Source of the DNA: a bacterium
GTDB lineage: Bacteria > JAMCPX01
Length of the DNA stretch: 13,470 bases
NCBI GenBank assembly: GCA_021789095.1
Contig: JAJYJX010000054.1
Coordinates: 1-13,470, forward strand
Reading direction: 5' to 3'
The notes beneath the pieces are model-generated. The model searched no databases. It was not told where the DNA came from and was given only the letters and a program-made list of their open reading frames with translations. Positions 6,791 to 13,470 of the stretch are shown piece after piece. A program made the translations under genes and the position numbers. Each line of letters opens with the position of its first letter. The stretch's first letter is position 1.

Positions 6791-7552
6791 ATGCGTTCTA
6801 TCAGAACTGTTTTTTTGGTTTTTGTCATAAGCTTATGCCTGTTACATGACGGCACGGCCATGGCAGGTCCGCCCTTTCTCACGGATGACCCGGAGCCTGT
6901 CGAGTACCATCATTATGAATTCTATGTATTCGGCATCACGGACAGGACAAAAGACGATACCACCGTCCAGGCCCCTGCAGTAGAATTCAATTACGGTGTA
7001 CTGCCGGAAACGCAGTTTCACATCATTGTTCCGTATACCAACAATTTCCCGCAGCAGGGCGCGGTCTGGCACGGGCTCGGCGATATCGAGCTTGGGATCA
7101 AGTACAGGTTTGTGCATGAAAGCAGCGGTATTCCGCAGATCGGGGTTTTTCCCATGATAGAGGTCCCGACCGGCAATGCTGAAAAGGGACTCGGTAACGG
7201 CACGGCATGGTACCGCCTGCCTGTCTGGGTGCAAAAAAGCTTCGGGCCCTGGACAACCTACGGCGGAGGCGGATATACGATCAACCCTGCACCCGGGATG
7301 CGCAATTACTGGTTTTCCGGCTGGCTGCTCCAAAAAGACGTGAGCGAAAAACTGACGCTCGGGGGTGAGCTGTTTGCTCAGGGACCTGATACCGTTGGCG
7401 CACACTACACCGTTATTGCCAATGCAGGCGGGTACTGGAATTTCACCCCTGATTTCAGCCTGCTGTTCTCTGCAGGACACAGTGTGGCCGGAGAAGAACA
7501 CACGGTGTCGTACCTCGGCCTGTACTGGACATGGGGACCGAAAGAAAAGTAA
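6791..7552 (+). CDS. Outer-membrane beta-barrel protein, MetA/phenol-degradation-like family
   Basis: A 253-residue exported protein. The N-terminus MRSIRTVFLVFVISLCLL followed by HDGTAMA-GPP is a clear signal peptide with cleavage after about residue 25. The mature part opens PPFLTDDPEPVEYHHYEFYVF and continues in alternating amphipathic strands with many aromatic and glycine residues, ending in ...GLYWTWGPKEK. This opening and layout match a family of putative transporters annotated from the MetA pathway of phenol degradation (Pfam Phenol_MetA_deg type). The assignment is from memory and the function is unproven; a passive outer-membrane channel is the usual guess. The ATG at 6791 has no visible ribosome-binding site, and the upstream space is shared with the divergent methyltransferase. 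Its last 98 bases overlap the tail of the small - strand cysteine-rich gene. Confidence 0.7.
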   Translation: MRSIRTVFLVFVISLCLLHDGTAMAGPPFLTDDPEPVEYHHYEFYVFGITDRTKDDTTVQAPAVEFNYGVLPETQFHIIVPYTNNFPQQGAVWHGLGDIELGIKYRFVHESSGIPQIGVFPMIEVPTGNAEKGLGNGTAWYRLPVWVQKSFGPWTTYGGGGYTINPAPGMRNYWFSGWLLQKDVSEKLTLGGELFAQGPDTVGAHYTVIANAGGYWNFTPDFSLLFSAGHSVAGEEHTVSYLGLYWTWGPKEK

Positions 7553-9965: not shown

Positions 9966-10865
9966 TCAAAGGATTTCATCTAGGACCCAGCGTCCACGTT
10001 GATCCTCCGGGACCAGACCGTTGACGAGGAAATCTCCGATAAATCTGAGAACGTCCTCTATGCCATACTTTTCGTCAAGTTTGATGCGGAAGCTCATCAC
10101 CTCGATCAAGCCGGTAAGACTGAAAGCTAGAAGCTCGGGGTCTACGTTTGGCCTGACTATCCCCAACTCTATAGCCTCGCGTACCTCTTTGATTACCGGT
10201 CCGGTGAGAGCCCTGTACATACGGTTAAGCTTCTCTTGCGGCCAGTTCTCCTCTGAGGCTATCTCGGCGCGGAGTTGATTCAGAATCTCCATATAGCGTG
10301 TGTAATTTTCAAAAAAAGTCCGGCCGCGGATAATCAATCGTTTGCCCAGGTTTTGCTCTCCTTTAATATTTCGAGCAGCATCGCCAACGATGTGATGGAA
10401 CACTTCTTCTACTACATCGATGAACAGGTCGCGTTTATTTTTGAAGTGAATATAGAAAGTCCCTATGGAAATCCCCGCCTTGTGAGTGATGTCATTTACC
10501 TTGGTGTTATGATAGCCCTTTTGTGAAAACACCTCGATGGCGGCGTTGATGATTTCCTTTTTTCTGGATTCTTGTGGTTCCAAACTGGCATTCTGAAGTT
10601 CGTTTTCCCCGTCAGACCGATTGCCGATGGCCTCAAGTCGTTCTATTTCCTGCTTTAAGAATATTATAGGCATGCGGAGGTCATTGCGAAGTCGTTTAAT
10701 TATAGATAGACGTGCCAGATGACTTGAATCGAAATATGCCATCGTGCGCCCTGTTTTCTGAGGTGGATGAAGCAATCCTTGTCTCAAATAATAATGGATT
10801 GTGGACTTGGGCAACCCACTATGAAGCGCAAGTTCGCTAATCTTCATTAATTTCCTAGTCTCCAT
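9966..10865 (-). CDS. MerR-TetR fusion transcriptional regulator
   Basis: A 299-residue regulator with two DNA-binding modules. Residues 6-78 are a MerR-type winged helix (MKISELALHSGLPKSTIHYY, then LRQGLL and the R-x-L-x-x-D-L-R-x-P pattern). A short polar linker (80-100) follows. Residues 101-150 are a TetR helix-turn-helix (AAIEVFSQKGYHNTKVNDI, then GISIGTFYIHFKNKRDLF), and the remainder is an all-helical TetR-like ligand and dimer domain. The ATG at 10865 is supported by GAGGAGG five bases upstream. It is divergent from the flavin oxidoreductase gene, with a dyad-rich 326-bp intergenic space. Control of its own promoter and of that operon by a small ligand, perhaps an acyl-CoA, is the natural inference. 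The effector and the sense of control are unknown. Confidence 0.88.
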   Translation of the reverse strand: METRKLMKISELALHSGLPKSTIHYYLRQGLLHPPQKTGRTMAYFDSSHLARLSIIKRLRNDLRMPIIFLKQEIERLEAIGNRSDGENELQNASLEPQESRKKEIINAAIEVFSQKGYHNTKVNDITHKAGISIGTFYIHFKNKRDLFIDVVEEVFHHIVGDAARNIKGEQNLGKRLIIRGRTFFENYTRYMEILNQLRAEIASEENWPQEKLNRMYRALTGPVIKEVREAIELGIVRPNVDPELLAFSLTGLIEVMSFRIKLDEKYGIEDVLRFIGDFLVNGLVPEDQRGRWVLDEIL

Positions 10866-10898
10866 GGCTACCTCCTCTAATACTCAATTAAGCATGTT

Positions 10899-10919
10899 AC
10901 TTTATATCAACTATAAAGT
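10899..10919. promoter_or_regulatory. Perfect 21-bp dyad, candidate operator
   Basis: The 8-bp arms ACTTTATA (10899-10906) and TATAAAGT (10912-10919) flank TCAAC. It lies 34 bp upstream of the regulator start. A further CTATAAAG word recurs at 10926-10933, 15 bp from the first at 10911. Position and symmetry suit autoregulation by the MerR-TetR protein. Confidence 0.5.
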
Positions 10920-11064
10920 TAAACTCTATAAAGAAATATTTTTTTGTCCTTATAAATCAATATAATATAAAATTATCATATTCACCACACTTTAATCAGT
11001 GTTTAAATATTAAGTAGTTATCCATAGAATAGAATTCATGTAACATATTGATAAGTTTAACTTT
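10915..11064. repeat. 11-bp inverted repeat flanking the intergenic region
   Basis: AAAGTTAAACT at 10915-10925 and its exact reverse complement at 11054-11064 lie about 130 bp apart. One is next to the 21-bp dyad and the other just before the -35 box of the oxidoreductase promoter. The pair could be paired operator half-sites for looping. AT-rich composition raises the chance of coincidence. Confidence 0.35.
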
Positions 11065-11068
11065 TTTC

Positions 11069-11097
11069 TTGACAAAGCAATTTTTATACTTTATTAA
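11069..11097 (+). promoter_or_regulatory. Sigma-70 promoter of the oxidoreductase operon
   Basis: A perfect -35 TTGACA (11069-11074), a 17-bp spacer and a -10 TATTAA (11092-11097) place the start of transcription near 11104, about 90 bases before the ATG. It is the best promoter match in the window. Confidence 0.65.
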
Positions 11098-11100
11098 TAG

Positions 11101-11118
11101 CGAACGACAATTCATTCG
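11101..11118. promoter_or_regulatory. Dyad at the predicted transcription start
   Basis: CGAACG (11101-11106) and CATTCG (11113-11118) form an imperfect dyad (5 of 6 positions) around ACAATT, directly over the predicted +1. A repressor bound there would block initiation; the divergent TetR-type regulator is the obvious candidate. Confidence 0.35.
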
Positions 11119-11191
11119 TAACTGTAGACTTACTCCAGATGCGAAGACTTGTCAATAGCAAAATGAAATTCGAAGTTCAGGAGGTGGCAAT

Positions 11192-12565: not shown

Positions 12566-12654
12566 AGAAACAGAAAAGTTTGTAGATCTTGGTGTAAGGA
12601 TGAAGGACAACATGATGAATAAAAACAGATAGACAATGAAAAAGGAGGATTCTA

Positions 12655-13470
12655 ATGAGCAAAGGAAGAATCGCAATCATCGGTATCGGCGAGGTGCCGA
12701 CAGCTAACCGCCCAGAACGCACGCAATGGGACATTATTTATGATACCTGCATGGAAGCGGTCAGTGACTCGGGCTTAAGCAAAAATGACATAGAAGGCGT
12801 GATTAGTGTCACTCCGCAAGCCCAGCCGAAGATAGCCGCCGAACTTTCCTTCGGCAAACTGCCCGAAGAGCTTGGGCTCAAAGGATGCAAAGATACAGTT
12901 AGTGTAAATGCCGGCGGGGCATCAACCTCGAACGCTGTACGGCTGGCCGAGCAGTGGGTGACGAGCGGTGTGGCAAAGGCTGTTCTGGTTCAGCATGTTA
13001 CTGTCCATTCCACCATCCCGATTCCCGACCTGATTAATTTCTTTGCCAAGGCGGGCGTGGACCTGCAATGGGAATATCCCTACGGCACCACCTACAACAT
13101 CATCATGGGCCTGATGGCCAATCGCTATATGTATGAGTCGGGCTGCACGCCCGAGCAGATGGCCTCGGTGGTTACGGCCCTCAGAAGTTGGGCTGCTAAA
13201 GACCCGAACTCGTTCTTCTACGGCAAGGCTGTTCCTTCAGTGGAGAAGGTACTGGCTTCTGACCTTCTCAACACTCCTCTGCATAAACGTGAAAGCAATG
13301 TTTTAGGCGACGGCGGCTGCGCTATGGTCGTTGTTTCGGCCGAAGATGCCAAGAAAATGAAGCGTCCGGCAGCCTACAAGCTTGGCGATTCCGTGCGTTA
13401 CTTCAGCGGCACCTGCGTTATGCGTGATTTCAAGAAAGTGGAAGAAGGATTCAAGGTCACGGCCAAGGAG
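12655..13470 (+). CDS. Thiolase-fold (SCP2-thiolase/lipid-transfer type) protein, partial
   Basis: The first 272 codons of a gene that continues beyond the window. It starts MSKGRIAIIGIGEVP and has AGG-rich ribosome binding (AAAGGAGG about seven bases upstream). The thiolase N-terminal fold is clear, with a beta-strand opening, the region SVNAGGASTSNAVRLA (83-98) and LGDGGCAMVVVSAEDA (217-232) equivalent to the GDGAAA loop. At the position of the nucleophilic cysteine the sequence has Gly88, so ordinary thiolysis by the classical mechanism is unlikely. Cysteine-less members of this group include retro-aldolases such as Ltp2, which work with an OB-fold/zinc-ribbon (DUF35) partner. No partner is visible here, but the downstream side is cut off. 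The gene follows the flavin oxidoreductase by 89 bp, probably in one operon. Confidence 0.85.
   Translation, partial: MSKGRIAIIGIGEVPTANRPERTQWDIIYDTCMEAVSDSGLSKNDIEGVISVTPQAQPKIAAELSFGKLPEELGLKGCKDTVSVNAGGASTSNAVRLAEQWVTSGVAKAVLVQHVTVHSTIPIPDLINFFAKAGVDLQWEYPYGTTYNIIMGLMANRYMYESGCTPEQMASVVTALRSWAAKDPNSFFYGKAVPSVEKVLASDLLNTPLHKRESNVLGDGGCAMVVVSAEDAKKMKRPAAYKLGDSVRYFSGTCVMRDFKKVEEGFKVTAKE

Follow-up and report, generated by a model that had tools for sequence, protein, structure and literature searches.

The gene that runs off the 3′ end of the window, by which we mean the whole 13,470-nucleotide stretch analysed here (an entire contig, C188 of genome G000), probably codes for an aldolase that is one subunit of a hydratase/retro-aldolase module and represents one branch of the clade containing Ltp2 and Sal; judging from sequence, we put the probability of this reading at about two in three. 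In the literature found, thiolase-fold retro-aldolases have been characterised in steroid degraders with MaoC hydratases. The present module may, at somewhat less than an even chance, be an anaerobic, non-steroid one, in which a DUF35-joined crotonase and a Tyr/His aldolase degrade β-branched or cyclic acids in bacteria of the sulfate-reducer type. If so, the hydratase/aldolase device would be a general way past blocked β-oxidation, with a different hydratase recruited via the same DUF35 tether in a single-copy member found in Desulfobacterota and small phyla, and the module would be a direct target toward finding an unknown anaerobic route.

The window gene and its active site

The open reading frame (12655–13470, forward strand) starts with an ATG just 3′ of an AGGAGG ribosome-binding site seen in the printed sequence (12643–12648, forward strand) and is interrupted by the contig end, leaving the N-terminal 272 of about 393 residues. 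By homology, alignment and tree, its product is a cysteine-less thiolase-fold protein, predicted to be a DUF35-dependent retro-aldolase: residues 2–256 match NCBIfam thiolase/lipid-transfer models (best 4e-32), and the solved structures matched include Ltp2 (6OK1, 3e-16) and DUF35-type thiolases. Against three close relatives, dN is 0.03–0.07 and dS ranges from 0.45 to saturated; with dN far below dS, the gene is under purifying selection. In the closest relative (L022, 94% identical, from a metagenome assembly), codon 252 of the aldolase is an in-frame stop (L022:2474–2476) and the frame is intact downstream, which reflects either an assembly error or inactivation.

What takes the place of the thiolase nucleophile? 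The segment SVNAGGAST (residues 83–91) carries Gly88 (codon 12916–12918, forward strand), which shares an alignment column with the nucleophilic Cys of paralogues including 7YVY and 6ESQ, and with the Gly of Ltp2 and Sal. The preliminary description had read Gly88 as a replacement of the catalytic Cys, and the full-length alignment agrees, with no Cys at that position: Gly88, Tyr290 and His340 are all invariant in 15 full-length relatives (mean column identity 83%). The latter two residues are read from relatives at 90–94% identity, the window gene stopping short of both. Tyr290 occupies the position of the HDAF His and replaces the catalytic His of thiolases, as in TcLtp2 and CtSal, and His340 sits in GRGHTGSG. 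Where thiolases carry the signature of a nucleophilic Cys and the HDxF His, the family has Gly88 and Tyr290 instead. Among 67 sequences, in which the residue counts are not independent because the sequences are related, Cys at the nucleophile position goes with His at the second position in 14 of 14, and Tyr at the second position goes with Gly at the nucleophile position in 33 of 33. A strict coupling of Gly with Tyr and of Cys with His was rejected, as the association is one-way and 14 Gly sequences retain His.

The tested bases are Tyr294 in TcLtp2, where Tyr344 is the acid, and Tyr302 in CtSal, where it is paired with Cys304; in CtSal, moreover, Gly89 makes a backbone contact to the substrate hydroxyl (PMC12329534). 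Since the base and the Gly are common to these enzymes and the window family, and Tyr344 and Cys304 are absent, another acid would be needed. The column of His340 holds Tyr344 in Ltp2 and Gln352 in Sal, and His340 is the best candidate for this acid; the predicted Tyr/His pair would then differ from the Tyr/Tyr pair of Ltp2 and the Tyr/Cys pair of Sal.

Clade and fold

The YDHF motif of Ltp2 and the YDCY motif of Sal are absent from the window family, which has Y-(L/M)-A-Y and so lacks residues that matter in Ltp2 or Sal. For this reason the family is assigned to the wider Ltp2/Sal clade, as neither an Ltp2 nor a Sal. Trees were built from 74 sequences and then from 73 with three active-site stretches taken out, and the family branches outside Ltp2 and outside Sal. 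With the active-site columns removed, one side of a 100/99 split holds the family, the copy in genome G047, L006, Ltp2, Sal, 4U4E and a few others, and the other side holds every Cys thiolase; the family and the G047 copy group together at 100/100. A cysteine-less protein of the aldolase type with a DUF35 partner had been proposed beforehand, and this is borne out both by the clustering with Ltp2 and Sal rather than with BbsB or SCP2 thiolases and by the DUF35 gene adjoining the aldolase gene in relatives. An AlphaFold model of moderate confidence (pLDDT 68, low around 117–150 and 333–341) gives Z scores of 32.8 against Ltp2 and 32.0 against Sal across about 355 residues, a fold match that alone does not tell aldolases from thiolases. 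The aldolase of the L024 locus contains a Thiolase_C_1 domain.

Operon layout and partner enzymes

In relatives, a divergent MerR-TetR regulator is followed by genes for the aldolase, DUF35, crotonase, acyl-CoA dehydrogenase, CoA ligase and amidohydrolase, in that order; an Old-yellow-enzyme gene lies before or after the operon, and an SDR gene is often present. The preliminary description had suggested looking among the next genes for a DUF35/OB-fold protein, acyl-CoA ligase, hydratase or dehydrogenase, and all four kinds are present there, the hydratase as an enoyl-CoA hydratase and the dehydrogenase as an acyl-CoA dehydrogenase. The conserved operon core has no hydroxyacyl-CoA dehydrogenase at the loci of relatives, as non-oxidative cleavage would allow, and no steroid genes stood out around the aldolase in the operon neighbourhoods. 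In the window genome, contig C182 opens at base 1 with an operon tail of 79% DNA identity to L024, consisting of the dehydrogenase C-terminus, the ligase, the amidohydrolase and a TRAP solute-binding protein; the aldolase end, DUF35 and crotonase are therefore most probably hidden in the assembly gap that separates C188 from C182. Molybdopterin oxidoreductase genes with similar N-terminal sequence adjoin the operon in two distant genomes (L046:122–3389 and L025:19436–20816), and a URO-D-like gene adjoins it in G047.

The DUF35 gene lies directly behind the aldolase gene and codes for a protein with a ChsH2-type zinc ribbon and an OB domain. Among solved structures, its closest match is the CtShy DUF35 (1.9e-26), with ChsH2 second (8e-19) and the DUF35s of thiolase complexes behind both. 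DUF35 and crotonase form one stop-free ORF in nine complete loci (L027, L029, L030, L031, L033, L034, L035, L036 and L037), the DUF35 part being 56–62% and the whole crotonase part 64–70% identical to the L024 counterparts; Pfam domains confirm the fusion in L027, the same fusion reaches the contig end in L028, and the two are separate genes in L023–L026 and G047. The hydratase that DUF35 tethers has a MaoC fold in Shy and in ChsH2 (PMC11321319), the mark of steroid side-chain systems, and a crotonase fold in the window family. A literature search on DUF35-hydratase fusions returned steroid work and otherwise unrelated papers. The crotonase retains both catalytic Glu residues (GGLEL and TEI). 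The dehydrogenase has Pro (FSPIS) where the MCAD type has Glu, and the Glu of its LNPERI aligns with the helix-G base of isovaleryl-CoA dehydrogenase, the catalytic Glu position of that enzyme (PMC10925408). The amidohydrolase has the fold of dihydroxybenzoate/ACMSD/carboxyvanillate decarboxylases, and its model (pLDDT 69) fits decarboxylases, hydratases and C-C hydrolases equally well.

In the window, the gene of an Old-yellow-enzyme-family reductase (PF00724; 11192–12565, forward strand) lies 89 bases 5′ of the aldolase in the same direction, and that of a MerR-TetR double-headed regulator (9966–10865, reverse strand) is divergent from the operon, as are its orthologues. The ene-reductase and the two-headed regulator reported beside the aldolase are real, and their order is kept in a distant genome. 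In G047 the order runs from the regulator through reductase, aldolase, DUF35, crotonase and dehydrogenase to the ligase; a gene for a condensation-domain protein separates the reductase from the aldolase, and the amidohydrolase gene lies farther on. Identity between the window and G047 is 80% for the reductase, 74% for the regulator and 40% for the aldolase, the reductase being far more conserved than the gene it adjoins; in a set of 98 G047-related genomes, only G047 itself has the amidohydrolase at this level. The reductase has a four-Cys motif (C-x2-C-x2-C-x11-C), which resembles the Fe-S site of 2,4-dienoyl-CoA reductase, and is without the C-terminal FAD/NAD(P)-binding domain.

At L024:7934–9709 (reverse strand), the divergent regulator is duplicated in tandem, a single ORF of 591 residues holding two MerR-TetR units. 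Between regulator and operon, palindromes with CTATAG or TATAAAGT arms recur in the window (10866–11191) and in several relatives, and CTATAG-containing ones occupy a similar place in L026, L027, L030 and L035. These palindromes, including ACTTTATATCAACTATAAAGT with its 8-base arms in the window (10899–10919), are weak candidates for the operator of the MerR-TetR protein. Elsewhere in the window, 6791–7552 encodes a predicted MetA-pathway-like protein (PF13557, weak match).

Distribution

A scan of GTDB genomes yielded 17 close relatives (64–94% identity) and one distant paralogue (L039). The records of the close relatives are mostly Desulfobacterota or deltaproteobacterial MAGs, together with one from Nitrospirae and Desulfosarcina widdelii PP31 (L036), a cultured strain carrying the module. 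Each of four genomes has exactly one family member, at 771–842 bits, with the next paralogue at 99 bits or less. In the phylum of the window, the aldolase is found in one of nine genomes, the window's own, which suggests gain by transfer. The 40% identical relative in G047 belongs to another small phylum, of which three genomes were searched. Contamination or misbinning of the window was considered and is unlikely: most of the phylum's other genomes carry an orthologue, 66–77% identical, of the hemG gene on the same contig. Literature searches on this operon in sulfate reducers and on the D. widdelii genes returned nothing.

A possible route

The relatives' operon in sulfate-reducer-type bacteria looks like an uncharacterised anaerobic route that shortens branched or cyclic acids. 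We infer both a retro-aldolase activity and an acyl-CoA degradation route; the preliminary description is supported in its observation as well as in its interpretation. A β-branched acyl-CoA hydrates to a tertiary β-alcohol, which is not oxidisable to a 3-ketoacyl-CoA. Thiolysis is consequently impossible, and retro-aldol cleavage resolves the block, as at the steroid C17 side chain. In the route proposed here, the acid would be activated by the CoA ligase, and the acyl-CoA dehydrogenase, with its isovaleryl-CoA-type base, would produce a 2-enoyl-CoA that is probably β-branched. The crotonase hydratase, DUF35-tethered to the aldolase, would then add water to give a β-hydroxyacyl-CoA, probably a tertiary one, and the Gly88/Tyr290 enzyme would cleave it without CoA into a ketone or aldehyde and acetyl-CoA or propionyl-CoA. 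Tyr290 would take the β-hydroxyl proton, the backbone of Gly88 would fill the place of the cysteine, and the enolate would probably be protonated by His340. Tertiary-alcohol chemistry would in this way link the dehydrogenase type to the aldolase, and the module would bypass the block that the tertiary β-hydroxyl of such acids would impose on normal β-oxidation. The reductase and the amidohydrolase may have roles in the same route. Literature searches found nothing relevant on retro-aldol cleavage in sulfate-reducing bacteria and nothing useful on DitZ.

Alternative explanations

Could the protein be a thiolase or acyltransferase working through a different residue, such as a Cys near 83–85 or a conserved His, in a pathway of ordinary β-oxidation? 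The fold is the same, the lowest pairwise E-value among solved structures belongs to the Cys thiolase 7YVY, many relatives have a Cys at positions 82–84, and an SDR gene lies 3′ of the operon in several loci, whose product could oxidise a secondary alcohol, which counts against a retro-aldolase. However, these Cys residues are not conserved, being absent from the window protein and its closest relatives; with Tyr replacing the thiolase His and the tree grouping the protein with aldolases, an unconventional thiolase seems unlikely. The loss of both the nucleophile and the HDAF His would also suit a catalytically dead homologue, one that scaffolds the DUF35-hydratase or is its lipid-binding subunit, but the replacement residues are invariant and equal to the tested aldolase residues, and the mean column identity is as high as stated above and dN/dS low, which makes this very unlikely.

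The module might also build rather than degrade, forming C-C bonds of the Claisen or aldol type (e.g., in branched acyl-CoAs). PhlABC, found among the fold matches, exemplifies the C-acylating enzymes within related DUF35 complexes, and a condensation-domain protein is encoded in the G047 locus. The CoA ligase, the acyl-CoA dehydrogenase, the TRAP solute-binding protein (in the window genome) and the hydratase fusion partner make up, by contrast, a catabolic set, and the building direction is accordingly highly improbable.

Comparison with known systems

The predicted retro-aldolase has counterparts in several known systems. Ltp2 with ChsH1-ChsH2, the actinobacterial steroid C3 side-chain aldolase (6OK1), has in common with it the thiolase fold, Gly at the nucleophile site and Tyr at the HDAF site, and likewise has a hydratase-tied DUF35 partner and acyl-CoA dehydrogenase genes nearby. 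It differs in its MaoC-fold hydratase, in the YDHF motif in place of Y-L/M-A-Y and in its second catalytic residue (Tyr344, against the candidate His340), and identity in structural alignment is about 22%. Sal-Shy, the proteobacterial bile acid side-chain aldolase (9MYR), also shares the thiolase fold, the Gly, the Tyr and a hydratase-tied DUF35, which is the nearest solved relative of the DUF35 in the relatives' operon. Its hydratase, however, is a MaoC protein rather than a crotonase, the essential Cys of YDCY is Ala in the window family, and Gln352 stands where the family has His340. BbsAB, the benzoylsuccinyl-CoA thiolase (7PXP), is likewise a pair of a thiolase-fold and a DUF35 protein in an anaerobic acyl-CoA route, but BbsB retains Cys and His and lies on the thiolase side of the tree, whereas the window family lies on the aldolase side. 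4U4E, a 'putative thiolase' of Sphaerobacter, belongs to the same clade and has the Gly/Tyr signature, but forms a separate branch.
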